Shown here: positions 28,438 through 64,000 of the stretch, one piece after another | How positions within the stretch are numbered: position 1 is the first letter of the stretch | How the letters are laid out: the number at the start of each line of letters is the position of its first letter | Source: Nostoc favosum CHAB5714 | Lineage (GTDB): Bacteria; Cyanobacteriota; Cyanobacteriia; Cyanobacteriales; Nostocaceae | NCBI RefSeq assembly: GCF_020829495.1 | Contig: NZ_JAIVFQ010000034.1 | Location: 1 to 64,000, forward strand | Direction: 5' to 3' | DNA: 64,000 nt | Position numbers and translations under genes: made by a program | The notes under the pieces: generated by a model | Told to the model about the DNA's origin: nothing | What the model saw: the letters and a program-made list of their open reading frames with translations, nothing else | The model's database searches: none

Positions 28438-29319
28438 TTAAGAAACATAATTTAAATACGATTTATAAAATTTGAATATTACTTGAGGGGGTATTTTAAA
28501 TACTAATCCCATAGCAAGTAACAAGTTATAGTATGAGTTTTGGATGGGCATACCTTTGAAACTAGCTGATAGAGCATTCAAAGAGCTTTTTCTTGTGTGC
28601 CAATCAATATTAAAAGAAATCGACATATCTAAGCTTCTAACATGATGCAATGTCCCAGATGGCATATATAAAATCTCACCAGGATTAACGATAAACTTAA
28701 TTGGACTGGCATTTTTATATTCAGGATATTTATTGAAGTCTGGATTTTCTGGATTCACAAGAAACCATCGCCAGCCTCTGCGATAACAATATTTGGCATC
28801 TTCAGGTAGTAGTATGGTAAATTGTTTGCGTCCAACAATTTGAAAGAAAATATTGTTAGTGAGTAGACAATCAAAATGTAGTGGAGTAATACTATTAGAA
28901 CAACCCAAGAAAAACTGACAATAACGCCACCACTTATCCCAGTACCATTCTGGTAAATAATCTAAAGGGAATGGTTGAGCATCTTCTATTAATGAAGGAA
29001 TTAAGCTAAATAAAGGTAGGTCGTGACAATATGGGGGTGAGGAATTATTTAGACAGTCAGCTTCATAATTTTCTATTAATCTTATATACTTTTCCATTGT
29101 TAGCCTACATACTTCAATCCCTCCATCACTAAATCTTTTAGCGTAAATATTCAGAGATGGTGATAATTGTTTGAAGTATTTTAATGACCATTGACTAAAG
29201 CCATTCCAGCTAGGAATAACTCCAGAAATTATGACAGGTTTTCCTTGACCAACATAATTTTTTGTAAATTCATGACTTGAAAGCTTGTATCTTCTTTCAA
29301 TTTCATCTAATACTATCAT
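28438..29319 (-). CDS. JmjC/cupin_8-type Fe(II)/2-oxoglutarate dioxygenase
   Basis: A 293-residue JmjC-like (cupin_8) protein. The iron facial triad is visible as HFD (His148, Asp150) in ITPLHFDCLLTNN and a distal histidine (His225) in YMPSGTLHHVRSL. The lysine in GRKQF, between them, is a plausible 2-oxoglutarate contact. The N terminus KPVIISGVIPSW is typical of the family. Small enzymes of this type hydroxylate amino-acid side chains or carrier-bound residues. Its ATG overlaps the stop of the HH-less condensation-like gene by 4 bp, so the two products are made together, and the Dab aminotransferase follows. I infer hydroxylation of a PCP-bound residue, probably Dab. The true substrate is unknown. 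Confidence 0.85.
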   Translation of the reverse strand: MIVLDEIERRYKLSSHEFTKNYVGQGKPVIISGVIPSWNGFSQWSLKYFKQLSPSLNIYAKRFSDGGIEVCRLTMEKYIRLIENYEADCLNNSSPPYCHDLPLFSLIPSLIEDAQPFPLDYLPEWYWDKWWRYCQFFLGCSNSITPLHFDCLLTNNIFFQIVGRKQFTILLPEDAKYCYRRGWRWFLVNPENPDFNKYPEYKNASPIKFIVNPGEILYMPSGTLHHVRSLDMSISFNIDWHTRKSSLNALSASFKGMPIQNSYYNLLLAMGLVFKIPPQVIFKFYKSYLNYVS

Positions 29320-30719
29320 GATTTGGATACTCCTAGAACTGATACTTCATTCTCTAAAATTGATGTGATTAATCGCTGTTTTTCTGTAGAAAACAATAAA
29401 TCTTTTATCTGTATGTTAGGGTCAGCGATAAACTGATGCAAAAGCATTTCAATATCTCTGAGTATCCCGATGATAGTACTAACATCAAACCTTCTAGAAT
29501 CATAGGAAAATGCTATTGATAATTCTTCCTCAGGATATATAACTAAAGCAAGAGGATAGTTACCTTTATAATATAATTTACCTAGCGTAAATCCTAAAAA
29601 CTCTTCCCAATAATCGTGTGTAAATTTTACATCTGGCAACTGTTCAATAACTACATGACTATCAAATAAATCTATGTCTCTTGGTATTTCGCTCCAATTA
29701 TGAATTTCTGTTAATGGAGTATATTCATACTTACGTGTCTCAGCTAGCTGAATCTGTAAATTTTGCATCCATGATAGCCAAGACTGGTTAGTTTCTACTT
29801 TCACACAAATTGGTAGTGTATTTACAAATACACCAGCTATTGATTCCGAACAATACAAATCTGTAGGACGGCCAGTGACGGTGCAACCATACATTACATC
29901 GCTTAACCTGCTATAGCGGCTAAGGAGGATAGCCCAGATACCATTAATTATTGTTGCTAAAGTGAGACGATATTTTTTTACCAAGGATTCTATCGTCCGT
30001 GTTTTTTCTGATGATATTTTGATTATTTCCTCATCGTATCTTTCTTCCTGAGAAGACGATTTATCAATCCTTTCTATATAAGTAAGGGGAGTTGGTCTTT
30101 TTACACCTTGTAATGTTTGCCGCCAAAAAATTTCGGTTTTAGCTATGTCCTGCTCCTGTAACCAATTAATGTAATCCCTATAAGGACGGGTAGGAGCTAA
30201 AGATATTTCTTTATTTTGAACAAGTGCTTCATAAATTTGCGCAAACTCATCCATTAGTAATGCACCAGTCCAACCATCTATGATTATAAAGTTATATGTC
30301 CAAATAAGCTGGTAGAAGTCATCAGTAAGGCGAATTAAAGATAGACGCATTAAGCATGGCCGTGATATGTCAAAGTTCAATTCACGATCGCTCTTAATAA
30401 AATTTTCCAATTTATTTTCTTGTTCGATTCTGTCTAGATTGCGCCAGTCATATTGATTTATCGATACTTTTACTTGTTTGTATACAACTTGTAGTGGGTT
30501 ATCAATCTCCTCCCAGTAAAATCCAGTGCGTAAAATAGTGTGTCGATCTACTAAAAACTGCCAAGATTTTTCAAAAATATCTGTATCAAGATTACGGACA
30601 GTATAGAGATGTTGAAAAAAGTATAGCTGCGATTCATTTTCCGCATACAAACAGTGGAATAAAATACCTTTTTCCAAAGGCGTAAGTTCATATATGTCTT
30701 CAATATTTTCCGTTTTCAT
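29316..30719 (-). CDS. Stand-alone condensation-like protein without HH (C*2)
   Basis: A 467-residue protein that is only a full-length condensation fold: N-lobe from DIYELTPLEKGILFHCLY, C-lobe with YGCTVTGRPTDL and VNTLPI. The active-site motif HHxxxDG reads NFIIIDG at residues 143-149, so both histidines, including the catalytic one, are lost while Asp-Gly stays. The rest of the fold is well preserved, which argues for a non-catalytic role rather than decay. Its start overlaps PKS D and its end overlaps the JmjC gene, both by 4 bp. HH-less C-like 'interface' domains are known in siderophore NRPSs, where they recruit trans-acting beta-hydroxylases. A similar scaffold role for the JmjC enzyme is my inference. 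Other options are a docking or gating C domain, or an unusual condensation site. Confidence 0.85.
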   Translation of the reverse strand: MKTENIEDIYELTPLEKGILFHCLYAENESQLYFFQHLYTVRNLDTDIFEKSWQFLVDRHTILRTGFYWEEIDNPLQVVYKQVKVSINQYDWRNLDRIEQENKLENFIKSDRELNFDISRPCLMRLSLIRLTDDFYQLIWTYNFIIIDGWTGALLMDEFAQIYEALVQNKEISLAPTRPYRDYINWLQEQDIAKTEIFWRQTLQGVKRPTPLTYIERIDKSSSQEERYDEEIIKISSEKTRTIESLVKKYRLTLATIINGIWAILLSRYSRLSDVMYGCTVTGRPTDLYCSESIAGVFVNTLPICVKVETNQSWLSWMQNLQIQLAETRKYEYTPLTEIHNWSEIPRDIDLFDSHVVIEQLPDVKFTHDYWEEFLGFTLGKLYYKGNYPLALVIYPEEELSIAFSYDSRRFDVSTIIGILRDIEMLLHQFIADPNIQIKDLLFSTEKQRLITSILENEVSVLGVSKS

Positions 30720-33700
30720 TTGTTTATTTTCTCAATCTTTTGGCTAATTTTTGTTATAAACTTATCCAATTTTTGCTTGTTTAAGTTAGCTTTTGGAAAG
30801 TCAGAGGGGGTATACATTACTGTTTCAACCGATTTACAGTGAATAATGAGAGAACGTATTGCTTCGATAAAATCATCGGACAAAGTTTCAATTGTTTCTC
30901 GGCGGTGAATAGACTTACTGTATCCCCAATGCAGTTGCAATTGTTCTTGAACGAAAATTGCATTAAGTTCTATTAAATAAATTCGGTTTTTAGGCTGACT
31001 GTAGTTGATGCCTTGAGAATTTTTGGGTAGAGCAAATAAAGACGAATCTGAAATCACTTGCTCATAGTGACCTAAGTAATTAAAACTCACTTCACTCTCA
31101 GGAAAAGCTCGCAGTTTTGATTGTATCTCTTGTTCGCAACCCAAGTACTGTAGTACACCGTAACCAATCCCATTATTAGAAATACCATGTAAATATTCTT
31201 TTATTGCTACTAATGAATCTCCCACTTCAGAGAATTCTGTTATATCTAAAATAGCTGGAAAACAAGTGCTTAATAAACCAACAGTACGGGACAGATTTAC
31301 ATCTTTGAATATTTTCTCTCTACTATTATCCCTGATATCAACCCGCAGTTTTCGTTCTCCCGTCCATTTTGCAAAAGCTTGCACCAAAGCTGTTAGTAAG
31401 ACATTATTAATTTGAGTATTATAGGCTTTGTGTATCTCGTCTAATAAAGCTTTTGTGTCTTGTTTGCTTAGACAAACTGATACGGTATCCCAATTAGCTA
31501 CTGTATTATCAGCTGTTGAATAGTCAACGGGTAAGCAGCTAAATGGTTTTTGCATCTCTTGGAGCCAATAATCCTGCTCTCGGATCATTTCTGAAGATTG
31601 AGCATACTTTTGGAGAGATTGTACCCACTGTATATATGAGATAGTATTAATTGGCAGATGTATTGTCTCGCCTTGACTAATTTGCTGATAAGCTGTTTGC
31701 AAGTCTTCTAGCAAAATTCGCCAAGAGATACTATCAACTGCAAGTTGATGAATGATAATTAGCAAGTAGCTAGTTTGTTGTGCCGCTAGGTCAAAGAATG
31801 CGAACCTTACAAGATGTCCCTCAAATAGGTTCAAACTCGCCTCTAATTCCGCAGCTTGTGACTCTATCGCGATTTTTTGCTCAATTTCTGACAGTGCCGA
31901 TAAACCTACTCGTTTTATTTCAATAGCATCATTGGAACTAGCATAAATTTGTTGCCAACCAGATTCTTTTTGGACAAAACGCAAGCGAAATACATCATGA
32001 TGTTCAATCAAATGCTGTAAAGCCTGCTCTAACAAATCGGGATTGCACACCTGCTGTATTTCCAGTAGTAAAGATTGGTTGCAATGATGTATATTTAGCT
32101 GATTCTGTTTAAGGAACCAATGTTGAATTGGTGTAAGGGGTAACTCTTTTGTTCCTAAACCCTGCTCCAGTTGATTAGTGTGGGTAATACATAAATTTGC
32201 TGCTAATTCATCAATTGTTTGATGTTTAAAAAGCTGCTCGGATCTGAACTTCAAATTTGCTTGGTTAGCTTTGGCAGCAATTTGAATCGCATTTACGGAA
32301 TGTCCTCCCAATTCAAAAAAGTTATCGTGGATACCTATTTGTTCGATACCTAAGATTTCTTGCCAAATATCAGCCAGCAATTGCTCGATTTCTTTTTCAG
32401 GAGCAACGTAATCATTAGCTAAATTAGGACGAGCATATTTTGCTTTGGAGGTATTGACTGAAGATAAATTTTTCTCTAGAAGAGCTAATTGCTGTTCCAA
32501 ATAATTGTTAGAAGTACTCTTCTGAATTAAAGCTTGCAGATATTGTGTCGATACAACAACTTGGGATAGGCTACAGGGCAAAACACGATTAAAAGCATCA
32601 ACACCTTCTTGAGGCAATATTCCTTTTTTTAGAGTTTCTTCACGACTCTGTTGAATTTCGCTTGGTATTACAGTCTTAACTGTCATCCCTATTTCTTGCC
32701 AACCATCCCAATTTATCGATACTGTGAATTGAGAAGATATAGAATTTTTATAGTGAGCATAAGCATCTAGAAAGGCATTGGCTGCACAATAATCTACCTG
32801 CCCAGTATCACCTAATATAGAGGTTATGGATGAAAAAAGCACAAAGAAATCCAGATATATACTCTTTAAAACCTCGTCCAATACTAATGTGCCTTTAACT
32901 TTTGGTGCTAATACATTGCTTGCCATATCCTGGGTTTTGAGTTGGATAATACCACTACCAGCAATACCAGCCGCATGAAGTACACCATTAATTTGACCAA
33001 ACTTTTGTAATGCTTGAGCAATTACTGCTTGCATTTCTTGAAAATTAGTCACATCGGCACTTTTGACCTCAACTTCTGCCCCTAATTCTTCAAGCGATCG
33101 CACTTTCTGTATCTTATTACTAACAGGATCTTGGCTATCATGATTTACTAACCATTGTTCCCACTCGGAGCGTTCAGGTAGTCCCCCTCGTCCAATTAGT
33201 ATTAACTTAGCTTTTACTGTCTTTGCTAGATGTTGTGCCAATAGCAAACCAATGTCACCCAGTCCCCCAGTAATTAAGTAAACTCCACTTTCCCTTAACT
33301 TAGTTTTGCCTGCAATAGAGTCATCTAAGGGTATAGCTTCAAAGCTTTGAGCCCAACGATGAGATCCACGGTAAGCAATGATCTCATTAGTCTGCTGTAA
33401 TGTTAATTCAGTTATAAGGTTATCTATGAGTTTCTCTGATAAATGGGTTTGAGCAGAATCTATTACTATATCAACACTACTGCAATTGATGTTTGGATAC
33501 TCTTGGGGAATTACCTTGCATGGTCCTAAGACTGTAGCCTTCTCTGGACATAAATTTTCATCTCCAGTGACATCATGTAGATTGGTGGTTACGACCATTA
33601 GCTTCAAAGAATTGGTAATATCTTGTCTTCCTATTGCTTGTGCTAGAAATAGAAGACTCCAGAAACCCAAATTTTGGGTTTCTTCAAAAAACTGATGCGA

Positions 33701-36700
33701 TGATTCTGTTTGTTCTATCACCTTATAGGAGGGTAAGGTAACGCTCCAAAAGTGAGCGATCGCATTTGGGTTTAAATCCAATCTGCTAAGTTCTGCTAGC
33801 AATGTATCATAATCATTACTGGTTTGAGGATTAATTGCGTAAGCGCGATCGCCTAACTTGTTAAAACGCTCTCCAATTACTACGGTTATGACATTATGAC
33901 CCTGTGATTCCAACTGCTCTACAACTTGCGAACCAACTCCAAGAGTATCAACAAAGACTAAACAACATAGTTTTTGTGATGATTTCGATGGTAAGTGGGG
34001 AGAACGCTTCCAGGAAGGAATATAAAACCAGTCGGCAATATTCGGTTTTTTGTGTAATGCCTGTTGTGCTTGCATAGCCAAGTTAGCTTCAGGATTGACA
34101 TCAATCCAGTAACGCTGACGCTCAAAAGGATATGTTGGTAAAGGGATGCGGACGCGTTGTTCATTGGCATAAAAACCAGACCAATCTACTTCTACCCCTG
34201 CCAGCCAAAGGCGACCCAATGTATTCATTAAAAAGGCAATATCTGACTGCTGCTCGTAGGAATGGCGCAGGGTGGGGAGCATCACCAATTTAGCTCTCTC
34301 CTCACCTTCTAGACATTGGGATGCGAAACTAATTAATGCTTGACCAGGGCCAACCTCTAATAAAATCGGATTGTCTTTTTGCCATAACTGTTGCACTCCC
34401 TGAGCAAAGCGTACTGCTTGACAGAGATGCTTTACCCAATAACTGGGATCTGTTGCTTGCTCTGCTGTAATCCATGTTCCTGTGACGTTAGAAATATAGG
34501 GAATTTTCGGGGGTTTCAGGCTAAATGTTTTGACTAAATCGCCAAATGCAGGTGCGATCGCCTCCATCATCACAGAATGGAAAGCGTGAGATGTCTGCAA
34601 ACGCTTACCAATTAAATTTTTCTCGCCCAGTTGTCGTTCCCATTCTTCCACCGCATCCTTAGCACCTGCAATCACACACAATGATGACCCGTTGATTGCA
34701 GACAAGGAAATATTTTCATTCAGGAGGGGCTGTATCTCTTCTTCTGAGAGGGGAACTGCCAGCATCGCCCCTTCTGGCAACTCGTCGATCATTTGGGATC
34801 TTCTAGCTACTAAGGTTAAAGCATCTTCTAGAGACAAAACCTCGGCTAGAGTTGCTGCTACATATTCGCCGATGCTGTAGCCAATCATCGCCACAGGACG
34901 AATCCCCCACGATATCCACAATTGAGCTAGAGCATATTCAACAACAAATATAGCTGGTTGGGTGAGAACAGTTTGATTTAGTAGAGATGTTGACTGCAAT
35001 GTCTCTGCATCTGCCTGTTCCTGACCACGACCTAACATTTTTCGCAAATCTAATCCACTTGAAGGGGTATCTTGTTTTTGCTTGCGATTGTCGCTATTTC
35101 TATTGGGATACAAGACATCTCGTAAATCCAGACCAAGGAAGGGTTTGAGGATTTCGCAACATTGGTCAACACAACCACTGAATGTTGGCTCATTTTGGTA
35201 AAGCTCAAGAGCCATATCAAGATAGTGAGTTCCCAGTCCAGAAAACATAAAGGCAATAGGGCGTTGCTGAGTTTTCTGAGTACTTGTAATAACTCGCCTT
35301 GGGTCTTGGAGTGCATTTACAGCATCTTGCACATCTCGACAGACAACCGTGCGCCGGTAGTCGAAAGCCCTGCGCCCAACCTGCAATGTGTAAGCCGCAT
35401 TGGCAAGGTTTAAATTGGGATGTTCTTGGAAATAGTCAACTAAATTTGCTGTTGCCGCTTCCAGTGCGGAACTGGTTTTGGCAGATAGCATTAATAATTG
35501 CCAAGGGCGAGAGGGGGGAGAAGTTTCCACAACCGGGGCTTCTTCGATAATTATATGGACATTTGTTCCCCCTAATCCCAGCGAATTCACTCCCGCACGT
35601 CGGGGAGTACCATTACTTTTCCACTCGGTAAGTTGGGTATTAACATAGAAAGGGCTGTTAGCAAAGTCTATCTCTGGGTTAGGTGTTTCAAAGTGCAAAC
35701 TTGGAGGTATTTGTTTGTGCTTCAGGGCTAGGACGGTTTTGATTAATCCCGTTACCCCAGCCGCAGCGTTCAAATGCCCAATGTTGGTTTTAACCGAACC
35801 AATGGAGCAGAAGCCTTTCTTTTGAGTACTTAAGCGGAAAGCTTGTGTTAAAGCAGCAATTTCAATTGGATCTCCTAAAGCTGTTCCGGTTCCATGAGCC
35901 TCAATATAAGTAATAGTCTCAGGTTCTACTTCGGCTACTAATTGGGCTGTTCTAATTGCTTTTGCTTGGGTGTCGATGCGGGGTGATGCATAGCTAACCT
36001 TTAATGAACCATCATTATTAGTAGCTGAACCTTTGATTACAGCATGAATTGTATCGCGATGTGAGAGAGCATCTTCTAATCGCTTTAATACTACAATGCC
36101 GACACCTTCGCCATCAACATAACCCTGTGCATTAGCATCAAATGCACGGCAGTGTCCATCAGGAGACAGTGTTCCCCCTTCATTATATATATATCCAGCT
36201 TTTCTTACTGCATCAACGTAAACACCACCAGCTAGAGCCATATCACATTCACCATTTAACAAGCTTTGACAAGCTAAATGGACAGCAACTAAGGATGTTG
36301 AACAAGCTGTTTGAACTGTATAACTAGGTCCAGTCAGATTAAGTTTATAAGAAGTACGTGTAGAAAGGAAATCTTTATCACAAGCTATAGCTAGTTGTTC
36401 TCCATCTACTGATATAGACTTTAGATTTGAATAAACGTTGAGCGGGTAGGAATATGAGCTAGCTCCTGCGAAAACACCTATTAAAGATTCCTCTATTCCA
36501 GATTTATATCCCGCATTCTCTAATGCTTCCCATGCACACTCCAAAAAAATGCGGTGCTGAGGGTCAGTGATTTCTGCTTCTCTGGGATTAAATCCAAAAA
36601 AAGAAGCATCAAATAATTCGCCATCTACTACACCACGTGCCTTAATATAATTTGGGGAACTTAGAAGCTCTCTATCTATTCCTGCTTTTAACAGTTCTTC

Positions 36701-36847
36701 ATCGCTGAAAAAAGAGATTGATTCTACGCAGTTTTGAAGATTATTCCAGAATTCATCAGTATTTTTGGCTCCAGGAAATCTTCCTGCTAATCCAATAATT
36801 GCTATTTCTGAACCATTAGTAGAAGTTGACGCTGTTGGAATACTCAT
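30716..36847 (-). CDS. PKS D: KS-AT-KR-NRPS-type carrier-inactive epimerase
   Basis: 2043 residues. The KS has TACSTSL, EAHGTG and KTNIGHLN. The AT is the variant type: FSGLGTHY, GYSIGEY (near 654) and an insert with GLDLRKMLGR; HAFH is kept. The KR is intact (TGGLGDIG near 1194, HAAG, YCAAN near 1349), so a hydroxyl is expected. The carrier (serine near 1514, GGHSVNAIQ, then QLFKHQTIDELAA) looks like an NRPS PCP rather than the ACPs of the other four PKS proteins. It is followed by an epimerization-type domain (about 1550-2000) from LPLTPIQHWF to TPSDFPKANLNKQ. That domain is dead by sequence: HHxxxDG reads HQLAVDS (1700-1706) and EGHGRE reads RDNSRE (1839-1844). An epimerase after a polyketide module has no obvious substrate. 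The stop overlaps C*2 by 4 bp. Confidence 0.92.
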   Translation of the reverse strand: MSIPTASTSTNGSEIAIIGLAGRFPGAKNTDEFWNNLQNCVESISFFSDEELLKAGIDRELLSSPNYIKARGVVDGELFDASFFGFNPREAEITDPQHRIFLECAWEALENAGYKSGIEESLIGVFAGASSYSYPLNVYSNLKSISVDGEQLAIACDKDFLSTRTSYKLNLTGPSYTVQTACSTSLVAVHLACQSLLNGECDMALAGGVYVDAVRKAGYIYNEGGTLSPDGHCRAFDANAQGYVDGEGVGIVVLKRLEDALSHRDTIHAVIKGSATNNDGSLKVSYASPRIDTQAKAIRTAQLVAEVEPETITYIEAHGTGTALGDPIEIAALTQAFRLSTQKKGFCSIGSVKTNIGHLNAAAGVTGLIKTVLALKHKQIPPSLHFETPNPEIDFANSPFYVNTQLTEWKSNGTPRRAGVNSLGLGGTNVHIIIEEAPVVETSPPSRPWQLLMLSAKTSSALEAATANLVDYFQEHPNLNLANAAYTLQVGRRAFDYRRTVVCRDVQDAVNALQDPRRVITSTQKTQQRPIAFMFSGLGTHYLDMALELYQNEPTFSGCVDQCCEILKPFLGLDLRDVLYPNRNSDNRKQKQDTPSSGLDLRKMLGRGQEQADAETLQSTSLLNQTVLTQPAIFVVEYALAQLWISWGIRPVAMIGYSIGEYVAATLAEVLSLEDALTLVARRSQMIDELPEGAMLAVPLSEEEIQPLLNENISLSAINGSSLCVIAGAKDAVEEWERQLGEKNLIGKRLQTSHAFHSVMMEAIAPAFGDLVKTFSLKPPKIPYISNVTGTWITAEQATDPSYWVKHLCQAVRFAQGVQQLWQKDNPILLEVGPGQALISFASQCLEGEERAKLVMLPTLRHSYEQQSDIAFLMNTLGRLWLAGVEVDWSGFYANEQRVRIPLPTYPFERQRYWIDVNPEANLAMQAQQALHKKPNIADWFYIPSWKRSPHLPSKSSQKLCCLVFVDTLGVGSQVVEQLESQGHNVITVVIGERFNKLGDRAYAINPQTSNDYDTLLAELSRLDLNPNAIAHFWSVTLPSYKVIEQTESSHQFFEETQNLGFWSLLFLAQAIGRQDITNSLKLMVVTTNLHDVTGDENLCPEKATVLGPCKVIPQEYPNINCSSVDIVIDSAQTHLSEKLIDNLITELTLQQTNEIIAYRGSHRWAQSFEAIPLDDSIAGKTKLRESGVYLITGGLGDIGLLLAQHLAKTVKAKLILIGRGGLPERSEWEQWLVNHDSQDPVSNKIQKVRSLEELGAEVEVKSADVTNFQEMQAVIAQALQKFGQINGVLHAAGIAGSGIIQLKTQDMASNVLAPKVKGTLVLDEVLKSIYLDFFVLFSSITSILGDTGQVDYCAANAFLDAYAHYKNSISSQFTVSINWDGWQEIGMTVKTVIPSEIQQSREETLKKGILPQEGVDAFNRVLPCSLSQVVVSTQYLQALIQKSTSNNYLEQQLALLEKNLSSVNTSKAKYARPNLANDYVAPEKEIEQLLADIWQEILGIEQIGIHDNFFELGGHSVNAIQIAAKANQANLKFRSEQLFKHQTIDELAANLCITHTNQLEQGLGTKELPLTPIQHWFLKQNQLNIHHCNQSLLLEIQQVCNPDLLEQALQHLIEHHDVFRLRFVQKESGWQQIYASSNDAIEIKRVGLSALSEIEQKIAIESQAAELEASLNLFEGHLVRFAFFDLAAQQTSYLLIIIHQLAVDSISWRILLEDLQTAYQQISQGETIHLPINTISYIQWVQSLQKYAQSSEMIREQDYWLQEMQKPFSCLPVDYSTADNTVANWDTVSVCLSKQDTKALLDEIHKAYNTQINNVLLTALVQAFAKWTGERKLRVDIRDNSREKIFKDVNLSRTVGLLSTCFPAILDITEFSEVGDSLVAIKEYLHGISNNGIGYGVLQYLGCEQEIQSKLRAFPESEVSFNYLGHYEQVISDSSLFALPKNSQGINYSQPKNRIYLIELNAIFVQEQLQLHWGYSKSIHRRETIETLSDDFIEAIRSLIIHCKSVETVMYTPSDFPKANLNKQKLDKFITKISQKIEKINK

Positions 36848-36964
36848 TGTCTTAATTATTCCTGGAATGTTATCAATACAATTATTTATTCAAACTTGTT
36901 GACTGAGCATATGCAACTTGAGGTAAATTGCAGATGACGAAACACCACTTAATCTTAATAAATC

Positions 36965-39900
36965 TTAGATATTCTCAATAGTTTTGATTTTTTGCAGACG
37001 CTTTCTTTGTTGAGCTTTTCCATCTGCAATTTTTTCGGGTATATTAGCCATCATATCATGAGACAGTTGTTTATTTTCGTTCTGTTCCAAAGAATTTGCT
37101 AAAGAGTTGATGGTTGGATATCTAAATAGGTCTAGGAGAGACAAGTTTCGTTTGAGCACTTCACGTAACTTGCTATTAACTTGAACTTGAAGCAATGAGT
37201 CACCACCAAGTTCAAAGAAATTATCGTAAATACCTATCTCTTGAATTCCCAGGATATTTTGCCAAACTTTGGCAATAGTTGCTTCTAATTCATTTCGAGG
37301 TGCTACATAATCATTTTGTAAATTAGGACGTGGATAACTTCTTGTTGAAGCATATTTATCTTCTAAAAATGCTAATCCTTCTTCCAGATTTTCATTATTT
37401 GAAAAATCCTGATTTCGTAAAGATTCAACTTTTATCCATTGCTGAATTCTTGCTTGTAAATCTCTAGTAGAAACAAGAATTTGACTCACTTCATTTAGCG
37501 TTAACAAACGTTCAAATACTTCTACACCAGCCTTAGAGGTGATCGGATATTTAGACAAATTTGCTTCAATATTTATATCTTGTTTTCCCCCTATTTCCCA
37601 ATCATCCCAGTTAACACTACTCCAACAGCAAGATTTAGTTTGGTTATGTTTGTGAACATAAGCATCCATAAAAATGTTAGCGGCAGAATAGGAAATAAAT
37701 CCTAAACCTCCTAAAATAGATGCTAAAGATGAAGTAAATTGACAAAAATCAAGGTCTTGTTGCTGTAAAACTTTTTCTAAAACAAATATTCCAAATACTT
37801 TGGAGTCAAATTGCAATTGAGCCAAGCGATAAGAAGTTTCTTCAATAGCGCAATGTGCTTCTTCGCTATTACCTGCTGCATAAATAACGCCGTTAATCGT
37901 ACCAAAGCGCTCATTTACTATTGCGATCGCTTTTTGCATTTGTTCTTCATTTGCCACATCGGCAGCGATCGCTAAAACCTCAGCACCCAAAGCCTCAATT
38001 TCTTGTACTTTGCGAATCTTATGGCTAATGCTATCCTCTTGATCGTGAGTTTCCAACCATTCTTGCCACTGGTCTTTTTCGGGAAGTCCCTTTCGTCCAA
38101 GCAGAACCAATTTCGCCTGGACAGTCTTTGCGAGATATTCCGCCAATACTAAACCAACACCTCCGAGTCCACCAGTGATTAGATAAACTCCTTGTTTCCT
38201 TAACTTAGTTTTACCAGTAATATTTTCATCTAAACGGATAGGCTCGTATGTTTGAACCCAGCGATGATTTTTGCGATAAGCAATTAAATTGTCAGTTGGC
38301 TGTGCTGTAAATTCGGCAAGTAGATAATCAATATGCTTTTGTGATGGCTTATGTCGCGATGCCAGCACAATATCAAAGCAACAGCAGCTAATATTAGGAT
38401 ATTCCTGGGGAATTACTTTGCACGGACTTAATATCGTTGCTTTCTCAGGACACAAAATCTCTGAACCAGTTACATCATGTACATTACTGGTGACAACCAT
38501 CAGTTTAATCGGCTCAGTGAGATTTTGCTGTCCCAAAGCCTGTGCTAAGAAGACAAGACTGTACAAACCGAGATTTTGATAATCTTCAAAAAACTGACGC
38601 TTTAAGTGTATCTGTCCGTCTGGCTCTTGGCGAGTTAAAGTATCGTCAGGTGTGATGGTCCAAAAGTGCGCTATCTGTTGTGGCTTCCAATCCTGCTCTT
38701 GCAGTCCTTGGAGTAAAGCATCATAGTCATCTTTTTGTTGGGGATTAATTGTGTATGTATGGTCGTCAAGTCTGGTAAATTGCTCTCCCAGCCCCACTAT
38801 TACCACATCCTGCCCCTTTTGTCTGAGTTGCTCGGCAATTTCAGAACCAACTCCGTATGTATCTACAAAAACTAACCAGTATGACTTTTGCTCTAGCAAT
38901 TCTCCCTTTTTGAGAAGCTCAAGTGGCGTAGATTCTTTCCAACGAGGAACGTAGAACCAATCAGCAATATCTGGCTTCCTACCTGAATTGGTCTGAGATA
39001 TCATTGCTAAAGTAGCATTTCTATTTACCTCAATCCAGTAACGTTGTCGTTCAAAAGGATATGTTGGTAAAGGAATACGATGACGGCGCTCATGAGTGTA
39101 AAAACCCGACCAATCTACTTTTACACCAAATAGCCACAGCTTACCTAAACTATTAAGTAAAAATGCCACATCAGACTCTTGCTCTTGAGGGTGGCGAAGT
39201 GATGTCAGCACTGGGGATTCTTCTTTTTGATGCTGTTTAACAAAAGTGCTTAACGTTCGTCCTGGCCCTACTTCCAAGAATAACGTTTCGGGTGTTTTCG
39301 CTAACTCAATAATTCCTTCGCAAAAACGTACAGGCTGTCTGAGATGTTGTACCCAATAATTAGGATCTGTTGCTTGGGCTGTTGTAATCCAAGTACCGCT
39401 GAGGTTGGATATAAAAGGAATTTTTGGGGGATTAAGTTTTAGTTTTTGTAAAAATTGGACGAAGGTTCCAATGATGGGTTCCATCATTTGAGAATGAAAA
39501 GCGTGGGAAGTATGCAAACGCCTACAGCTAACACCTATTTGTTGTAGTTCCTGTTGCAATTGCTCTATAGCTTCTGTGCAACCCGATACCACGCAGGAAC
39601 AAGGTGCATTGCTCGCTGCGAGAGATACTTCCTGCTCTAGCAGTTTTTGTACATCCTTTTCTGGAAGCCCAATCGAGAGCATAGAACCATCAGGCAACTG
39701 CTGCATTAGTTTTCCTCGCGTTGCCACTATTGCCAAGGCATCTTCTAAAGAAAAAACTCCAGCCAAAGTGGCAGCTACATATTCTCCTATACTGTGACCA
39801 ATCATCATCTCAGGGCGTACACCCCATGCCATCCACAACTTGGCTAAAGCATATTCAATTACAAACAGCGCTGGTTGAGTAATTGCTGTTTGTTGCAATT

Positions 39901-41689
39901 TTTGTGTTGCTTCTTGAGCTTTTTCTTCGTTGGGATAGAGAACTGTACGCAAGTCCAATTCCAACTGAGGTTTGAGCAGTTCGCAGCAGTAATCAACTTG
40001 CTCTCTAAATACGGCTTCGGTCTTGTATAATTTCCGACCCATATTTACATATTGCGAACCTTGTCCGGAAAACATAAATACAATCGGGCGGTTACAAGGT
40101 TCTTGATAATGTGTGAAAGCTCTTTGAGGGTCTCGCAATGCATTAATTGCGTCTTCCTGATTTTGGCAAACTACCATGCGGCGATGATTCAAATTCCAGC
40201 GACCCACTTGTAAGGTGTGAGCAACATCGGCAAGATTTAAATCTGGATGTTCCTGGAGATAATTAGCCAGATTTTCTGTAGCAGTTGAGAGTGCTGTACT
40301 TGTCTTGGTTGAAAGTAATAATAACTGCCAAGACCTTGAAGGGCTAGAAGGTTTAAGTATGGGAGCTTCTTCTAAAATTACATGGGCATTTGTTCCACCA
40401 AAACCAAAGGAACTAACACCCGCACGGCGAGGAGTACCATTAGTTTTCCACTCAGATAATTTGTTATTTACATAGAAAGGACTGTTCACAAAGTCTATCT
40501 GGGGTGATGGTTCTTCAAAGTTTAAGCTAGGCGGGATTTGTTTGTGTTTTAAGGCTAGTACGGTTTTAATCAAACCTGCAACCCCAGCAGTTGAATCTAA
40601 ATGCCCAATATTGGTTTTCACAGATCCAATACGACAAAAGCCTTTCTTTTGAGTTTTCGCACGGAAAGCCTGCGTTAAAGCAGCTATTTCAATGGGATCG
40701 CCTAGTTTAGTACCTGTTCCATGTGCTTCAATGTAGCTAATAGTATCAGGTTCAACTTCAGCCATAACTTGAGCCGCCCTAATTACCTTCGCTTGACCAT
40801 TTACGCTCGGTGCTGTGTAACTAACTTTATCTGACCCATCGTTGTTAATCGCAGAGCCTTTGATGACCGCATGGATGCAATCTCCATCTGCGATCGCTTC
40901 TTCTAAACGTTTGAGAACTACAAGACCCAAACCCTTTCCTTTTACGGTTCCCGCAGCCTTTGCATCAAAAGCACGGCAATGTCCATCGGGAGATTCGATT
41001 CCTCCCTCCTGATATAAATAACCATCTGCTGTTGATATTGAAACTCCTCCTGCTAAAGCAATATTACACTCACCACTGAGCAGACTTTGGCAGGCTAAAT
41101 GTACAGCAATTAATGAACTTGAGCAAGTGGTTTGCACCGCATAACTGGGTCCGTTTAAGTTTAATTTATAAGAAGTAAGTGTAGTAACGTAATCTGGAGA
41201 AGTTCCCTTTTCTATCTGTGCATCACCGACAGAGGCTACAATATCGTAATTTGAATAAATGTTAAGTAGATAACTGCCAAGGCTTGTACCAGCATAGACA
41301 CCAATAGGCTTTTTATATACTTCAGAGCTATAACCGGCATCTTCAAGTGCTTTCCATGAATGCTCCAAGAAAAAACGCAGCGAAGGGTCCATGACTTCAG
41401 CTTCTCTGGGACTGAAGTCAAAGAATGAAGCATCAAACAAGTCTATATCTTTGACTACACCCTTTGCTTTTACATAATTTGGGTTGCTTAATAAAGCAGG
41501 ATCTACACCTAAATTTTTTAATTCTTGGTCGGTGAATATATGTATCGATTCTACACCATCTCGAAGATTTTTCCAGAATTCATCAATATTGTTAGCATCA
41601 CAAAAACAGCCGCTCATGCCGATAATAGCTATTTCCAAACCAGTTTGATTATTTAAATATGCTGAATTTTCCATAGGTGAGTTGTCCAT
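36965..41689 (-). CDS. PKS C: KS-AT-KR-ACP
   Basis: A 1574-residue module. The KS (about 15-440) has TTCSSSL around the active cysteine, EAHGTG and KTNIGHLD. The AT (about 550-860) has FSGQGSQY, GHSIGEY and HAFH, so malonyl-CoA is expected. The KR is complete (TGGLGGVG near 1171, YAAG, SYSAAN near 1331), so a beta-hydroxyl is predicted. The ACP serine is near 1495 (GGDSLLQV). The C terminus is basic (QQRKRLQKIK), matching other proteins here whose next partner begins with a KS, in this case PKS D. Its upstream partner is the half-C/A/PCP protein, whose stop-to-start gap is 41 bp. No DH, ER or MT domain is seen. Confidence 0.94.
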   Translation of the reverse strand: MDNSPMENSAYLNNQTGLEIAIIGMSGCFCDANNIDEFWKNLRDGVESIHIFTDQELKNLGVDPALLSNPNYVKAKGVVKDIDLFDASFFDFSPREAEVMDPSLRFFLEHSWKALEDAGYSSEVYKKPIGVYAGTSLGSYLLNIYSNYDIVASVGDAQIEKGTSPDYVTTLTSYKLNLNGPSYAVQTTCSSSLIAVHLACQSLLSGECNIALAGGVSISTADGYLYQEGGIESPDGHCRAFDAKAAGTVKGKGLGLVVLKRLEEAIADGDCIHAVIKGSAINNDGSDKVSYTAPSVNGQAKVIRAAQVMAEVEPDTISYIEAHGTGTKLGDPIEIAALTQAFRAKTQKKGFCRIGSVKTNIGHLDSTAGVAGLIKTVLALKHKQIPPSLNFEEPSPQIDFVNSPFYVNNKLSEWKTNGTPRRAGVSSFGFGGTNAHVILEEAPILKPSSPSRSWQLLLLSTKTSTALSTATENLANYLQEHPDLNLADVAHTLQVGRWNLNHRRMVVCQNQEDAINALRDPQRAFTHYQEPCNRPIVFMFSGQGSQYVNMGRKLYKTEAVFREQVDYCCELLKPQLELDLRTVLYPNEEKAQEATQKLQQTAITQPALFVIEYALAKLWMAWGVRPEMMIGHSIGEYVAATLAGVFSLEDALAIVATRGKLMQQLPDGSMLSIGLPEKDVQKLLEQEVSLAASNAPCSCVVSGCTEAIEQLQQELQQIGVSCRRLHTSHAFHSQMMEPIIGTFVQFLQKLKLNPPKIPFISNLSGTWITTAQATDPNYWVQHLRQPVRFCEGIIELAKTPETLFLEVGPGRTLSTFVKQHQKEESPVLTSLRHPQEQESDVAFLLNSLGKLWLFGVKVDWSGFYTHERRHRIPLPTYPFERQRYWIEVNRNATLAMISQTNSGRKPDIADWFYVPRWKESTPLELLKKGELLEQKSYWLVFVDTYGVGSEIAEQLRQKGQDVVIVGLGEQFTRLDDHTYTINPQQKDDYDALLQGLQEQDWKPQQIAHFWTITPDDTLTRQEPDGQIHLKRQFFEDYQNLGLYSLVFLAQALGQQNLTEPIKLMVVTSNVHDVTGSEILCPEKATILSPCKVIPQEYPNISCCCFDIVLASRHKPSQKHIDYLLAEFTAQPTDNLIAYRKNHRWVQTYEPIRLDENITGKTKLRKQGVYLITGGLGGVGLVLAEYLAKTVQAKLVLLGRKGLPEKDQWQEWLETHDQEDSISHKIRKVQEIEALGAEVLAIAADVANEEQMQKAIAIVNERFGTINGVIYAAGNSEEAHCAIEETSYRLAQLQFDSKVFGIFVLEKVLQQQDLDFCQFTSSLASILGGLGFISYSAANIFMDAYVHKHNQTKSCCWSSVNWDDWEIGGKQDINIEANLSKYPITSKAGVEVFERLLTLNEVSQILVSTRDLQARIQQWIKVESLRNQDFSNNENLEEGLAFLEDKYASTRSYPRPNLQNDYVAPRNELEATIAKVWQNILGIQEIGIYDNFFELGGDSLLQVQVNSKLREVLKRNLSLLDLFRYPTINSLANSLEQNENKQLSHDMMANIPEKIADGKAQQRKRLQKIKTIENI

Positions 41690-41730
41690 AAATAATGTTA
41701 ACTATTGGCCTATTGCTTATTAGCTATTTA

Positions 41731-44496
41731 TTAAACATTCTGTTGTTGATTGCGTAAAAAGCGTTGCTTTAATCTTCTTTTACCAAATTCTAACTCTTCA
41801 TTTAATTCATTGCTTTGATTTGCGAATACATCATCTTCTTCTTGGTTTAAATACCGAGATATGGAGCTGATAGTTGGATATTTAAAAAGATCAGTTATAG
41901 CTAAGTCTGGTTTAAATAGTTCTCGCAGTTTACTGTAGACTTGAAGCACGTTTAAAGAATGACCGCCAAGATCAAAAAAGTTATCTTCAATACCGACTTT
42001 TTCTACTTTAAGTATTTTCTGCCATATATCGGTAATTGTAAGTTCCATGTCATTTCGCGGTAACACGTAAACTGTTTCTAATTCTGGACGAAGATTATCT
42101 GGTTTAGGCAAAGCTTTACGGTCTATTTTTCCACTTGGCGCTAGAGGTAAATTATCCAGCATCACAAAGGCAGAAGGAACCATGTGGTCAGGTAATTTTT
42201 CCTTCAAGAAGCTACGCAGTTCGCTAATACTAGGAGATGGCTCTATCTTTGCAACCACATAGGCAACTAATACTGTGTTATCTACTTCCTCTTGATAAGC
42301 CACAACTACATTTTCACGAATATTCGAGTGCTGACCAAGAAATGTCTCTATTTCACCAAGCTCAACCCGGAAGCCACGAATTTTTACCTGATGGTCAATA
42401 CGTCCGAGAAATTCTATGTTCCCATCGGGAAGCCACCTGCCTAAATCTCCTGTTTTATAAATCAAATCTGCACGATTTTCTGGTAACTTCTTCCTTCCAT
42501 CTATAAACGGATTCGGAACAAAGCTTAATTTAGTTTTTTCTTCGTTTTTCCAGTAACCAGCACCCACACCAATTCCCGATACACAAATCTCTCCTGGAAC
42601 ACCAATCGGTAATAATTTCATTTGCTCATCCAGAATGTAGAGATTTAAGTTCACTAGCGGTTTTCCAATTGGAATTGTTCGCTGATTTTCTGGTAAAGGC
42701 TTGTCAACGATAAACTGGGTAATATCATCAGCAGCTTCGGTCGGGCCATAAGCGTTAACAATTTTGATTTGCGGATATACTTGAAGCCACTTATTTACCC
42801 AATTAACCGACACAGGCTCCCCTACAACCATCATCCATTTCAAATGAGGCAATTCTCTTTTGTTATTTGGTAGCCCCGAAGTATATTCAAGCAACCCGCC
42901 AAATAATGCAGGTACTAATTCAACAACTGTTATTTCTTCTGATTTGAGTACTTGAAATAGCTTATCAGGAATTGCAACAGTTTCAATATCTACTATTACC
43001 GTCCTTCCGCCAATTAATAGCGGTGCCAAAAACTGCCAAACGGAAATATCAGTTGAAGAAGGGGCGCTTTGGAGAAAACAAAATTCCTCGGTCAATTCCA
43101 ACTCATCGAACTGGGCATAAATGTGATTAACTGCACCATCATGTCTAACTATTGCTCCCTTGGGTAGTCCTGTGGAACCGGAGGTATAGAGCATGTAGGC
43201 TGGGTCACTAGCATCGTTTATTTGTTCTAAGTTGTCCTCGGGAAGGTTAATAAAACCAAGTTGATCGTATATTGTTAGTTCCTGGTTATGAGTTAGTTGT
43301 ACGCTTTCGGGAATAACCCCGTCTAAACAAATAATAGATTTTAATTGAAAAGAGTTATCTATTAATTCTGTCAAAACAGTTAACAAGGAAGTATCAGTTA
43401 AAAGAAACTTAACTTCACTATTAGATAACATATATTCAATTCTATTTGACGGATAAGTACTGTCAATCGGTACGTAAGCACCACCAGCCTTATATATAGC
43501 CAGAATAGCGATAAGAAAATTTATATCACGGTCTTTAAATATGCCTACAAACTCACCTTTCCTGATTCCTAGCTTACGCAAAATTACAGCTAGCTGGTTA
43601 GCTTTTTCATTTAACTCTTGATAAGTTAATTTCGTACCTCCATCAACTACTGCTATATTGTTAGGGGTTTTATATACCTGTTGCTCGAATAACTGATTTA
43701 TTGTCTTATCGACTGGATATTCTTCATAGTTATTATTGTACTGTTTCAATAATCGGTGTTTATCAGCTTCTTTCAAAAAAAGAATATCTGACATTTTAGT
43801 GTTCACATTATTGATAATATTATCAAGAACATTAGTATAGTATCTGCTGAATAATTTGATATTATCATTTTGAAAAAGATTTTCACTGTACTCTATACTA
43901 GCACTAATAAATTCATCATTAATTGAAAAAGAAAATGTAATATCATTGTTGAGATAATTTAAATCATTTTTATTATGAATATTTTCTAGTAAAACCACTA
44001 TGTCAAAAAGTGGACAACGATTAGAGTTTGTCGGTATCTCCAATAACTGAATTAACTCATCAAAATTGCAGTTTTGATTGTTAAAAGCATCTAAGATTGC
44101 GTCTTTGACTTGAAACAGATAATTTTTGAATGATAGTTGAGGTGTTACCTGAGTAAGCAAGGGAATAACTTTGCGATTTAAATCATTTGTAGCAATCTCT
44201 TCATATACAGGTATCCCAACAAGAATATCGTTATTTCTAGTATATTTTTGCAGCAATATATTCAATGCAGACACCAGTATCCAGTAAGTTGAAAAATAAG
44301 AACCTTTAGTTAGCTTAATGATTGCTTGAGATAAATCATTTGATAAATCGAAACAAAATAGTTTGCTTCTATCACTAAACAGTATAGGTCTGAGATAATC
44401 CAGCCTTAAATTTGTTTCTGGTAATTCTCCTGATAATTTATTTATATAATAAATTTTTTGTGACAATAATTCATCCGAGTGTAAATGCATAATCAT
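41731..44496 (-). CDS. NRPS half-C / A / PCP, predicted Dab
   Basis: About 921 residues from ATG 44496 (AAGGAA lies 4 bp upstream; ATG at 44490 is an alternative, and a TTG further up is less likely). The N-terminal 230 residues are the C-terminal lobe of a condensation domain only, beginning YYINKLSGELPETNL; HHxxxDG is absent. The A domain has YTSGSTGLPKG, and I read the pocket as D-I-W-E-M-V-A-D-D plus lysine, identical to the module at 23256. The same substrate, probably Dab, is therefore expected. This copy has no methyltransferase insert; A8 runs straight to LPDHMVPSAF. The PCP serine lies in GGHSLNVLQV. The basic tail (KRRLKQRFLR) matches hand-over to PKS C. Half-C plus A is very similar to the paralogue, so the pair arose by duplication. 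Confidence 0.9.
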   Translation of the reverse strand: MIMHLHSDELLSQKIYYINKLSGELPETNLRLDYLRPILFSDRSKLFCFDLSNDLSQAIIKLTKGSYFSTYWILVSALNILLQKYTRNNDILVGIPVYEEIATNDLNRKVIPLLTQVTPQLSFKNYLFQVKDAILDAFNNQNCNFDELIQLLEIPTNSNRCPLFDIVVLLENIHNKNDLNYLNNDITFSFSINDEFISASIEYSENLFQNDNIKLFSRYYTNVLDNIINNVNTKMSDILFLKEADKHRLLKQYNNNYEEYPVDKTINQLFEQQVYKTPNNIAVVDGGTKLTYQELNEKANQLAVILRKLGIRKGEFVGIFKDRDINFLIAILAIYKAGGAYVPIDSTYPSNRIEYMLSNSEVKFLLTDTSLLTVLTELIDNSFQLKSIICLDGVIPESVQLTHNQELTIYDQLGFINLPEDNLEQINDASDPAYMLYTSGSTGLPKGAIVRHDGAVNHIYAQFDELELTEEFCFLQSAPSSTDISVWQFLAPLLIGGRTVIVDIETVAIPDKLFQVLKSEEITVVELVPALFGGLLEYTSGLPNNKRELPHLKWMMVVGEPVSVNWVNKWLQVYPQIKIVNAYGPTEAADDITQFIVDKPLPENQRTIPIGKPLVNLNLYILDEQMKLLPIGVPGEICVSGIGVGAGYWKNEEKTKLSFVPNPFIDGRKKLPENRADLIYKTGDLGRWLPDGNIEFLGRIDHQVKIRGFRVELGEIETFLGQHSNIRENVVVAYQEEVDNTVLVAYVVAKIEPSPSISELRSFLKEKLPDHMVPSAFVMLDNLPLAPSGKIDRKALPKPDNLRPELETVYVLPRNDMELTITDIWQKILKVEKVGIEDNFFDLGGHSLNVLQVYSKLRELFKPDLAITDLFKYPTISSISRYLNQEEDDVFANQSNELNEELEFGKRRLKQRFLRNQQQNV

Positions 44497-44607
44497 TACT
44501 TTCCTTGATAACAAAATAACTTACAAAAGTTATAGATAAAACTCAATCTTTGATAACTAGTAATTTTTCATTTGTGATATTGACTTCTCAACTGTTATAA
44601 TAATCAT

Positions 44608-46002
44608 TTAATTTATTGTATCAAAATTTAATGACATTTCTTTTTCTAACGCTAATAATTTAATATGGGTTTTTTGCTCTGTAAGCAACAATAACTCCTT
44701 AATACGTACTTTAGGATTCTTCACCATACCTTCGAGCAATATTTTTAAATGCTCCAATATATTAATGATTGTTGCAGCATCAAAGCGGCGAAAATCATAA
44801 TTAATTCCAATCGTCAGTTCTGAGCCAGGATAGCCAACTATATTTAGAGGATAGTTTGTTTTATAATAGGTAGTTTGCTCAGAGATGTTTAGACTCCCCC
44901 ATTCTTGCAGAAACTTACCTGTTTTTTGGTTCTCGAACACCACAAAGCTCTCAAACAATGGTACATTACCCGGTACTTTACTGCACTTTTGAATATCTAC
45001 CAGTGGAGAATACTCATACTCTCGAATTTCTATCAATTGAGTTTGTAATTGCTGAAGCCAAGATAATAAATACTCGTCGAAATCTATCTTGATGTGTACT
45101 GGTAAGGTATTAACCATTTCCCCTACCATTGACTCCGATCGCTCTAAATCTACTGGACGACCAGAAGTAGTACAGCCATAAATTACTTCATTTTTGCCAC
45201 TGTAACGACTAAGGAGTATAGCCCAAGCTCCCTGAACTAATGTATTCATAGTCAGGTGATGCTGTCTTGCTAATGAATTTAGATTCTTTGTAGTTGCTTC
45301 TGATAGACTGATTTGTATATCCTCATAGCGTTCTTCTAAATTAGACAATTTGTTTGAGTATAAGTTAGTTAGGGGAGTAGGCTCTTTTACTCCATTTAGT
45401 TGTTGTCGCCAAAACTCCTCTGCTTTGGATAAATCCTGCTGTTTCAACCATTTAATGTAGTCTTTAAAGCAACTGCCATCTGCTAAGGGTGCATCTTGAC
45501 CCCGACAATATGCTTCATAAATTTCAATCACATCATTTAATACCAATGGATATGACCAACCATCTAGAATGATCAGGTTGCTACTCCAAACAAGATAGTA
45601 AGCGTGTTCTTGAATCTGGATTATAGCCACACGCATTAGAGGTGCTTGGGAAAAATCAAAACGCCGCAAGCGATCGCTGTCGATAAAAGATTTTAAACGC
45701 TCTTGTTGTTCTAATGAATTGAGTTCCTGCCAATCCTGGTACTCTACAGGTACTTCTACTTGCTGATGCACAACTTGTAATGGTTTATCTAATTCTTCCC
45801 AATAGAAGCTGGTACGCAAGATTGTGTGTCGGCTTGTGACTTGCTGCCAAGCGTATTTAAAAGCAGCAAGATTCAGATTGCCACTAAAAGTGTAGACAAA
45901 CTGCATATGGTATAGTCCCATTTCCGGGGCGTGCAAACCATGAAAGAGAATACCATGCTGTATTGGAGATAGTGGGTATATATCTTGGATATTTTCTCTC
46001 AT
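44608..46002 (-). CDS. Stand-alone condensation-like protein without HH (C*1)
   Basis: A 464-residue single condensation fold, paralogous to the protein at 29316. The N-terminal lobe begins DIYPLSPIQHGILFHGLH; the C-lobe has YGCTTSGRPVDL and VNTLPVHI. HHxxxDG reads NLIILDG at 142-148, so the histidines are replaced while Asp147 and Gly148 remain. Both C* proteins share Asn plus a bulky hydrophobic residue at these sites, a common derived change. It overlaps the Gly module gene by 4 bp and precedes the half-C/A module, so it lies where the condensation domain for that residue should be. It may be a docking or interface domain, or a gate. No oxygenase gene adjoins this copy; the TauD-type gene at the right edge is a candidate partner. 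The function is not established. Confidence 0.85.
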   Translation of the reverse strand: MRENIQDIYPLSPIQHGILFHGLHAPEMGLYHMQFVYTFSGNLNLAAFKYAWQQVTSRHTILRTSFYWEELDKPLQVVHQQVEVPVEYQDWQELNSLEQQERLKSFIDSDRLRRFDFSQAPLMRVAIIQIQEHAYYLVWSSNLIILDGWSYPLVLNDVIEIYEAYCRGQDAPLADGSCFKDYIKWLKQQDLSKAEEFWRQQLNGVKEPTPLTNLYSNKLSNLEERYEDIQISLSEATTKNLNSLARQHHLTMNTLVQGAWAILLSRYSGKNEVIYGCTTSGRPVDLERSESMVGEMVNTLPVHIKIDFDEYLLSWLQQLQTQLIEIREYEYSPLVDIQKCSKVPGNVPLFESFVVFENQKTGKFLQEWGSLNISEQTTYYKTNYPLNIVGYPGSELTIGINYDFRRFDAATIINILEHLKILLEGMVKNPKVRIKELLLLTEQKTHIKLLALEKEMSLNFDTIN

Positions 46003-50483: not shown

Positions 50484-50487
50484 GTTT

Positions 50488-51669: not shown

Positions 51670-51710
51670 TTTTTGACTTCCATATACAAATATTCATCAA
51701 TGTCAATAAT

Positions 51711-51962: not shown

Positions 51963-51989
51963 TTTTAATTTACCTGATTCTAATTGACT

Positions 51990-63597: not shown

Positions 63598-64000
63598 CTA
63601 CTTAAGATAACTTAGTAGAGAAAAAACTCGTCGTCGTGAATCGGTAAATGAGTTACGACCATGCAAGAATCTTGAATTATCAATCATGAGCAAGTCACCG
63701 GATTGCCATGGTATTACCCCAGTAAATCTGTCCATCAGTTGCTCGATTTGGTTAATAACTACCACAGGAATCAGAGAACCATCTTCAAAAGTTACTATAG
63801 CGTCTTCGTCGTTTTCCTCTGTGTTCTCTGTAAGGATGCTGTTGGCAAATGCATCCTGATTTCCATACTTAGTTTTGACCACAGCTGAGCAAAAATATTC
63901 TAGAGAAACAGACTGATCTTTGTATATCTGATAATTTACCTCAAGACCTTCCAGCATTCGCTTAACATCAGCGAGGGTTGCACCTGTACCCAAAAAACGC
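63598..64000 (-). CDS. TauD/TfdA-type Fe(II)/2-oxoglutarate dioxygenase, partial (5' end outside window)
   Basis: The last 134 or so codons of a TauD/SyrP-like dioxygenase gene; the frame is open to the window edge and the true start lies beyond it. The C-terminal block WQSGDLLMIDNSRFLHGRNS carries the distal iron-binding histidine, and SRRRVFSLLSYL the arginine that binds 2-oxoglutarate. The HxD pair must lie upstream. Enzymes of this type in NRPS clusters often hydroxylate carrier-bound amino acids in trans. It has the same orientation as the cluster and lies 174 bp before PKS A, so it is probably part of the pathway and a possible partner for one of the HH-less C* proteins. Confidence 0.8.
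   Translation of the reverse strand, partial: RFLGTGATLADVKRMLEGLEVNYQIYKDQSVSLEYFCSAVVKTKYGNQDAFANSILTENTEENDEDAIVTFEDGSLIPVVVINQIEQLMDRFTGVIPWQSGDLLMIDNSRFLHGRNSFTDSRRRVFSLLSYLK

Follow-up and report, generated by a model that had tools for sequence, protein, structure and literature searches.

What do condensation (C) domains do when they stand alone and have lost their supposedly catalytic histidine? The question is raised by two proteins of a nonribosomal peptide synthetase (NRPS) and polyketide synthase (PKS) cluster in Nostoc favosum CHAB5714, C*1 and C*2, both encoded in a 64,000 nt stretch (hereafter the window; contig NZ_JAIVFQ010000034.1, positions 1-64,000). An initial annotation had described them as two full-length C proteins with N[FL]IIxDG replacing HHxxxDG, and this description is confirmed. 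It had also taken the loss of the histidines as the mark of interface domains that recruit hydroxylases. Our analysis indicates that C*1 and C*2 are probably not interface domains recruiting a JmjC oxygenase, but trans-acting C units of split modules for diaminobutyrate (Dab), from a family that has repeatedly lost the histidine supposed to be catalytic. The two proteins are:

44608..46002, minus strand: C*1, free-standing C protein of 464 aa, with NLIILDG at residues 142-148 (45559-45579)
29316..30719, minus strand: C*2, free-standing C protein of 467 aa, with NFIIIDG at residues 143-149 (30273-30293)

The two-lobe C fold is complete in both, based on domain coverage and, for C*2 alone, a structure model. 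Conserved residues other than the histidines are retained (R64, D148, G149, R284 and N300, of which D148 and G149 belong to the motif). Lacking canonical HHxxxDG, C*1 and C*2 are derived variants rather than canonical members of the D-C-L class. Reading frames are intact and the operon positions are coupled by 4 bp. Median dN/dS values (number of sequences in brackets) are 0.21 (8) for the C*1 clade, 0.25 (5) for the C*2 clade, 0.12 (9) for the HM group, 0.20 (10) for other HF proteins, 0.21 (4) for NH proteins, and 0.18 (23) and 0.19 (9) for two HH groups.

Each C* gene lies between a donor with a tail derived from an epimerization (E) domain and an acceptor composed of a half-C, an adenylation (A) domain with a Dab code and a peptidyl carrier protein (PCP). 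HH homologues occupy the same slot elsewhere. The surrounding parts are:

41731..44514, minus strand: acceptor module of C*1, with half-C, A (code DIWEMVADD) and PCP
43735..44514, minus strand: half-C of the C*1 acceptor, C-lobe only (PF00668 positions 187-456)
23256..26912, minus strand: acceptor module of C*2, with half-C, A (code DIWEMVADD) carrying an inserted FkbM-type methyltransferase, and PCP
26142..26912, minus strand: half-C of the C*2 acceptor, C-lobe only (PF00668 positions 187-456)
27116..28366, minus strand: EctB-type diaminobutyrate-2-oxoglutarate transaminase (TIGR02407, 587.8 bits against a cutoff of 552.2)
45999..49385, minus strand: donor of C*1, C-A(code DILQLGMIW)-PCP, with the E domain deleted and the E-derived docking tail FDFPEADLNQQDLERFLGKI retained
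30716..36847, minus strand: donor of C*2, a PKS with ketosynthase (KS), acyltransferase, ketoreductase, acyl carrier protein and E*, ending in the docking tail YTPSDFPKANLNKQKLDKFITKI
30719..32146, minus strand: E*, a degenerate epimerase domain with HQLAVDS, and with DNSRE instead of the expected EGHGRE

The half-C is without the lobe that bears HHxxxDG, and a full C domain is otherwise missing from the Dab module. Therefore, the free-standing protein appears to be the sole evident condensation unit of the split Dab module. We take DIWEMVADD to be a Dab code; the EctB-type transaminase encoded in the operon, which would supply Dab to the C*2 cassette, supports this reading. The C*2 cassette has both EctB and JmjC genes; the C*1 cassette has neither of its own. 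A search of open-licence literature on substrate codes returned nothing matching the Dab code, and the published L-Dab code, as given in PMC3479019, has a different form (DVGEISAIDK; the Ser code given is DVWHFSLVDK). In the same literature, whose open-licence scope makes this a weak absence, no report on point was found for Dab in cyanobacterial NRPSs, truncated C domains, EctB with NRPSs, hydroxy-Dab lipopeptides or free-standing C proteins in Nostoc. The FkbM-type methyltransferase (PF05050) inside the second Dab A domain (23256-26912) could, with the JmjC enzyme, yield O-methyl-beta-hydroxy-Dab.

As related loci we took those matching C*1 or C*2 best; up to 388 genomes of one order and 217 genomes of one family were covered. 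The 81 retrieved stretches and the window were annotated with a domain library derived from the window; gene orders of L131-L170 were counted by script. In total, 76 distinct C proteins were identified (68 free-standing and 8 C-terminally fused), with the second histidine kept in 43 and lost in 33. Downstream context could be checked for 67 C proteins, for which the sequence continues 4.5 kb or more beyond the gene. A half-C-A-PCP module follows 65 of these, EctB 56 and JmjC 36 within 6.5 kb, and the A code is nearly always that of Dab. Among the 65 loci linked to a half-C, the second histidine is kept in 34 and lost (to F, L or M) in 31. Judged by gene order, the usual cassette is a donor, a trans C protein, an optional JmjC, EctB and half-C-A(Dab)-PCP. 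The gene orders inspected show no substitute C domain lying between donor and acceptor. A third cassette of the same genome, on another contig, has a C protein (contig C215, 29072-30445) with HHITGDG, a JmjC 90% identical to that of the window and EctB, with the half-C module past the contig end. A scan of genome contigs with one protein query recovered only 2 loci.

Two homologue searches at E 1e-3 gave 311 and 872 proteins, and the best 120 of each were listed (213 distinct). Nearly all of those listed are about 465 aa long with a single C domain, and the named organisms are all cyanobacterial. Their motifs begin with HH, NH, HF, HM, HL, NL, NF, HQ or rarer forms. In a FastTree phylogeny of 215 rows, Phe replaces the second histidine throughout the C*2 clade (26 rows, of which 25 are distinct); NF is unique to this strain within the clade, the 24 other members retaining the first histidine. 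Its sister group (25 rows) has NH and one SH, and the next group out consists of 29 HH rows. In the C*1 clade (48 rows), the first position is occupied by H, N or S and the second by L, M or I.

An IQ-TREE phylogeny of 121 rows was calculated with both histidine columns removed. The free-standing proteins are nested among inline D-C-L-type domains, all of which are HH (node supports 99/90 to 100/97), and the C*1 clade (99/100) and C*2 clade (100/99) are separated by HH and NH clades. Parsimony on this tree gives at least 5 changes of the second-histidine state among D-C-L-like rows and 6 across all rows, six losses being indistinguishable from fewer losses plus regain. A single loss shared by C*1 and C*2 was considered and discarded: the one-clade constraint is rejected (p-AU 1.1e-9, lnL 260.8 worse), for a group chosen from the finding and the tree. 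On these trees, the second histidine of C*1 and C*2 is independently lost.

Assignment to the D-C-L class, by grouping with C domains that follow E, holds for the free-standing C proteins. The upstream gene ends in E for 7 of 8 inline D-C-L-type domains and 49 of 68 free-standing proteins, and most of the remaining free-standing ones follow a gene with an E-derived tail. According to the initial annotation, a grouping of C* inside active L-C-L domains would have spoken against its proposal; C* nests with HH relatives from the same gene slot, which comes near to that outcome, although the type is D-C-L and not L-C-L. Interface-like domains of related loci cluster apart from C* in the IQ-TREE phylogeny. 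The second histidine is intact in 99 of 99 other C domains of the same loci (91 L-C-L-like and 8 inline D-C-L-like), a count that is partly circular because the L-C-L-like class is defined by HH, and that gives weak support, domains with poor coverage having been excluded as well. The remaining 36 HH-less domains of these loci all belong to the interface-like type with the motif [PS][AGS]xxxD described below.

The donor side is preserved as well. A tail like YTPSDFPRANLSQQDLDKFLAKIN ends the donors that precede free-standing C proteins, even those from which E has been deleted. Retention despite E deletion was found for the C*1 donor of the window and in L066, L076, L115, L118, L119, L120, L133, L137, L139, L143, L146, L148, L162 and L163. 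The last A code could be read in 6 of the eight E-less NRPS donors (window, L076, L115, L118, L119 and L120) and is DILQLG[ML]IW in 6/6. We take this code, including the DILQLGMIW of the C*1 donor, to be that of Gly, a residue that epimerisation would leave unchanged. The tail is retained after E loss, which suggests that C*, whether histidine-bearing or not, still has to meet its donor. Docking by COM domains operates at E/C junctions between proteins, as stated in a passage of PMC9113145. E domains that follow PKS modules show EGHGRE in 0/17 readable second motifs (of 24 domains), and NRPS-linked ones have HGRE in 19/24. The PKS-linked E domains are probably not epimerases.

On balance, we slightly favour the reading in which C*1 and C*2 each act in trans as the condensation unit of a split Dab module and still condense Dab without the second histidine. 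The donor tail would dock onto C* in the manner of COM domains, the half-C would preserve the C-A platform, and Dab-PCP would reach the acceptor side of C*, where C* would make the amide bond. The second histidine could be dispensable, perhaps because the second amine of Dab acts as a local base or because C* mainly positions both thioesters. JmjC, where present, would act on the Dab unit independently of the histidine state of the C protein. More tentatively, and as a rather unlikely possibility, a carrier-bound diamino acid may supply its own base (the side-chain amine of Dab), freeing the second histidine for repeated loss, so that acceptor-assisted condensation would replace histidine chemistry.

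Several points weigh against condensation without the histidine. TycB1 is of the D-C-L type, like C*. According to PMC8968710, loss of the second histidine abolishes condensation in EntF, TycB1, SrfA-A and AmbB. The hydrophobic replacements F, L and M could equally mean a retired active site. A compensating acid or base fixed in every clade lacking the histidine was looked for and none was found; the C*2 clade has gained a histidine at position 340 (82%), and the NH clade, with its second histidine intact, has the same (88%). Only a diverged tail is present in the E-less donors of L078, L160 and L161, and the expected half-C module is absent from L135 and from L077:5657, where the C lies at the end of a half-C protein. 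The half-C/A platform is only inferred because the structure model of half-C-A-PCP is poor overall (pLDDT 58.6).

The reading of the initial annotation, that C* are free-standing interface domains recruiting JmjC (C*2) or TauD (C*1) to carrier-bound Dab, involves two oxygenase genes:

28438..29319, minus strand: JmjC / Cupin_8 Fe(II)/2-oxoglutarate oxygenase family protein, overlapping C*2 by 4 bp
63598..64000, minus strand: TauD-type oxygenase (full gene to contig position 64473), judged to lie outside the C*1 cassette

The overlap with C*2 is as had been reported, and X domains are, according to PMC8949500, a precedent for HH-less C-like recruiters. JmjC is also tightly linked to the cassette: 41 matches at E 1e-90 were found in 38 of the 217 family genomes, and 38/41 lie within 1 kb of a C* homologue (free-standing or a C-terminal C), one lies at 2.9 kb, and two are on contigs without a C* match among the matches listed. 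The proposed association of C*2 with JmjC is thus upheld at the level of the Dab cassette, but histidine loss as the mark of recruitment is not. JmjC lies downstream of 21/34 C proteins with the second histidine and 15/31 without it (Fisher p = 0.32, uncorrected for relatedness among loci), so that 16/31 proteins lacking the histidine, including C*1, have no JmjC downstream. Its partners include HH, NH, HF, HM, HL, NL and NF proteins. On a JmjC tree of 40 rows, the histidine state of the partner changes 6 times, with HH and histidine-less partners interleaved, and the clade of 9 that includes the window JmjC has 5 HH, 2 HF and 1 NH among its remaining partners. Since the partners are mixed, JmjC, on this evidence, is tracking the Dab cassette and not histidine loss. 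The HHITGDG paralogue, with its nearly identical JmjC, and the Dab module, which otherwise has only a half-C, speak likewise against recruitment, as a functional C would be expected alongside an interface domain. The TauD gene is 17.6 kb from C*1 and adjoins a PKS, contrary to its suggested use by C*1. We consider the interface reading improbable.

The main rival of histidine-free condensation sees C*1 and C*2 as docking scaffolds without catalytic function that join the donor carrier protein, JmjC and half-C-A-PCP; a suitably positioned thioester and amine would then react uncatalysed, or a different C domain would form the bond. Bulky hydrophobic residues at the second histidine position in several clades, maintenance of fold, docking tail and selection, and the degenerate appearance of PKS-linked E domains near C*2 relatives (EGHGRE 0/17) would all fit. 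Against a scaffold stand the retained D and G of the motif and further conserved residues, together with the lack, in the gene orders inspected, of a substitute C domain separating donor from acceptor; we regard a scaffold as unlikely, though it deserves serious attention. Both histidines are gone and the E domain beside C*2 is degenerate, as would be expected if the C* genes were decaying remnants and the Dab modules skipped. Such decay is very improbable given the intact frames, median dN/dS of about 0.2, coupled operon positions and many-member clades without the histidine.

A second HH-less C-like type, with the motif [PS][AGS]xxxD, was identified outside the window. It is nearly always fused to A-PCP and usually directly follows a TauD gene (L064, L066, L067, L071, L073-L075, L077, L116, L117, L119, L124, L126-L128, L131-L133 and others), and in several loci an HH C domain ends the gene before TauD. 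Of the 36 such domains (35 A-fused, one free), 22 have TauD and 4 have a C-ending gene as the next gene upstream; that gene is unassigned for 6 and not visible for the other 4. Two of the six unassigned genes were checked by Pfam and both are TauD. The associated A codes begin with DLTK in 33/40, which we take to be Asp. Use of the edge TauD by C*1 was considered in this light, and the related TauD genes instead precede these A-fused domains, mostly in Asp-coded modules. This arrangement looks like a real interface-domain set-up, perhaps connected with CyanoBH_Asp, the beta-OH-Asp hydroxylases of cyanobacteria that PMC12971057 names. Domains with less than 80% coverage were excluded from the C-domain count, among them at least 5 with DLQIFDA or YDLIFDA (L081, L120, L122, L123 and L130); these HH-less C-like domains start A-methyltransferase-PCP proteins two genes upstream of HM-type C proteins.

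If the diamino acid does supply its own base, a free-standing C with half-C-A-PCP would be a distinct split-module architecture. The role of the second histidine is still debated, according to a passage of PMC11546977. A single gene slot with the same acceptor code here holds HH, NH, HF, HM, HL, NL and NF proteins which, with their donor and half-C-A(Dab)-PCP, are matched natural enzymes for testing it. C domains are reported to be flagged as inactive by antiSMASH 8 if catalytic residues are absent, and our results suggest that such annotation rules may mis-call entire modules. The portable Dab cassette (trans C, optional JmjC, EctB and half-C-A-PCP) is of possible engineering use.

Other genes of the cluster were also identified. 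FkbH, acyl-CoA dehydrogenase (FkbI-like) and hydroxyacyl-CoA dehydrogenase (FkbK-like) genes are consecutive at 49413-52853, presumably as for hydroxymalonyl-type extender units, and also adjoin several related cassettes. A PanP-type pyridoxal-dependent aspartate decarboxylase (18014-19714; TIGR03799 above cutoff), present in several related clusters, probably supplies beta-alanine. By eye, two overlapping open reading frames (ORFs) at 12301-13273 each resemble part of a methyltransferase. Also judged by eye, the edge of the cluster shows signs of rearrangement: a short ORF resembling a transposase lies at 4567-5055, and at 6166-6501 the C-terminal part of a P450 adjoins a full-length P450-like ORF. 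The second cluster of the genome (contig C215) contains an unusual stretch (L113:11033-15618) in which short KS, JmjC-like and FkbK-like fragments accompany a gene of the Asp/Asn beta-hydroxylase type (PF05118).

Among known systems, interface (I) domains of siderophore NRPSs have a C fold without intact HHxxxDG and an Fe/2-oxoglutarate oxygenase nearby, and should stand beside the functional C domain of the module. C* shares the loss of HHxxxDG; it is not additional to a functional C, being the only full C of its module, it is nested among D-C-L domains, and its histidine state is independent of an oxygenase. In related clusters, a better match to I domains is the A-fused [PS][AGS]xxxD domain that follows TauD genes, for the most part in modules with an Asp code. 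Interface domains are mentioned by name in a passage of PMC12230676. Glycopeptide X domains are also C-like and have lost HH. They differ in carrying HRxxxDD, where C* has NFIIIDG or NLIILDG, and in recruiting a P450; the X domain 4tx2 is a weak sequence match to C*2 (35 bits, versus 328 for McyB).

The closest solved relatives of C* in sequence and fold are D-C-L domains at E/C junctions between proteins, such as McyB C1, SrfA-C C and TycB C1, which we take to be of the D-C-L class. C* likewise groups with inline domains that mostly follow E and has donors with an E-derived tail, comparable to COM junctions. It differs in being free-standing beside half-C-A-PCP, presumably acting in trans, and in having lost the second histidine. 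VibH takes a free amine as its acceptor in place of an amino acid bound to a carrier. VibH is a stand-alone C protein, as is C*, and VibH-like enzymes use diamines and polyamines, but the HHxxxDG of VibH is intact; mutation of the second histidine in VibH and VibF has little to moderate effect, according to PMC8968710. The streptothricin ORF18 C domain has HQxxxDM and is active, according to a passage of PMC11546977. As described there, it has in common with C* the missing second histidine, a diamino acid (beta-lysine) and A domains on other proteins, and it differs in its fusion to a PCP, in Gln where C* has Phe or Leu, and in an unrelated pathway. These tolerant cases, with beta-lysine or with diamines and polyamines, may parallel the use of Dab, itself a diamino acid, by C*1 and C*2.

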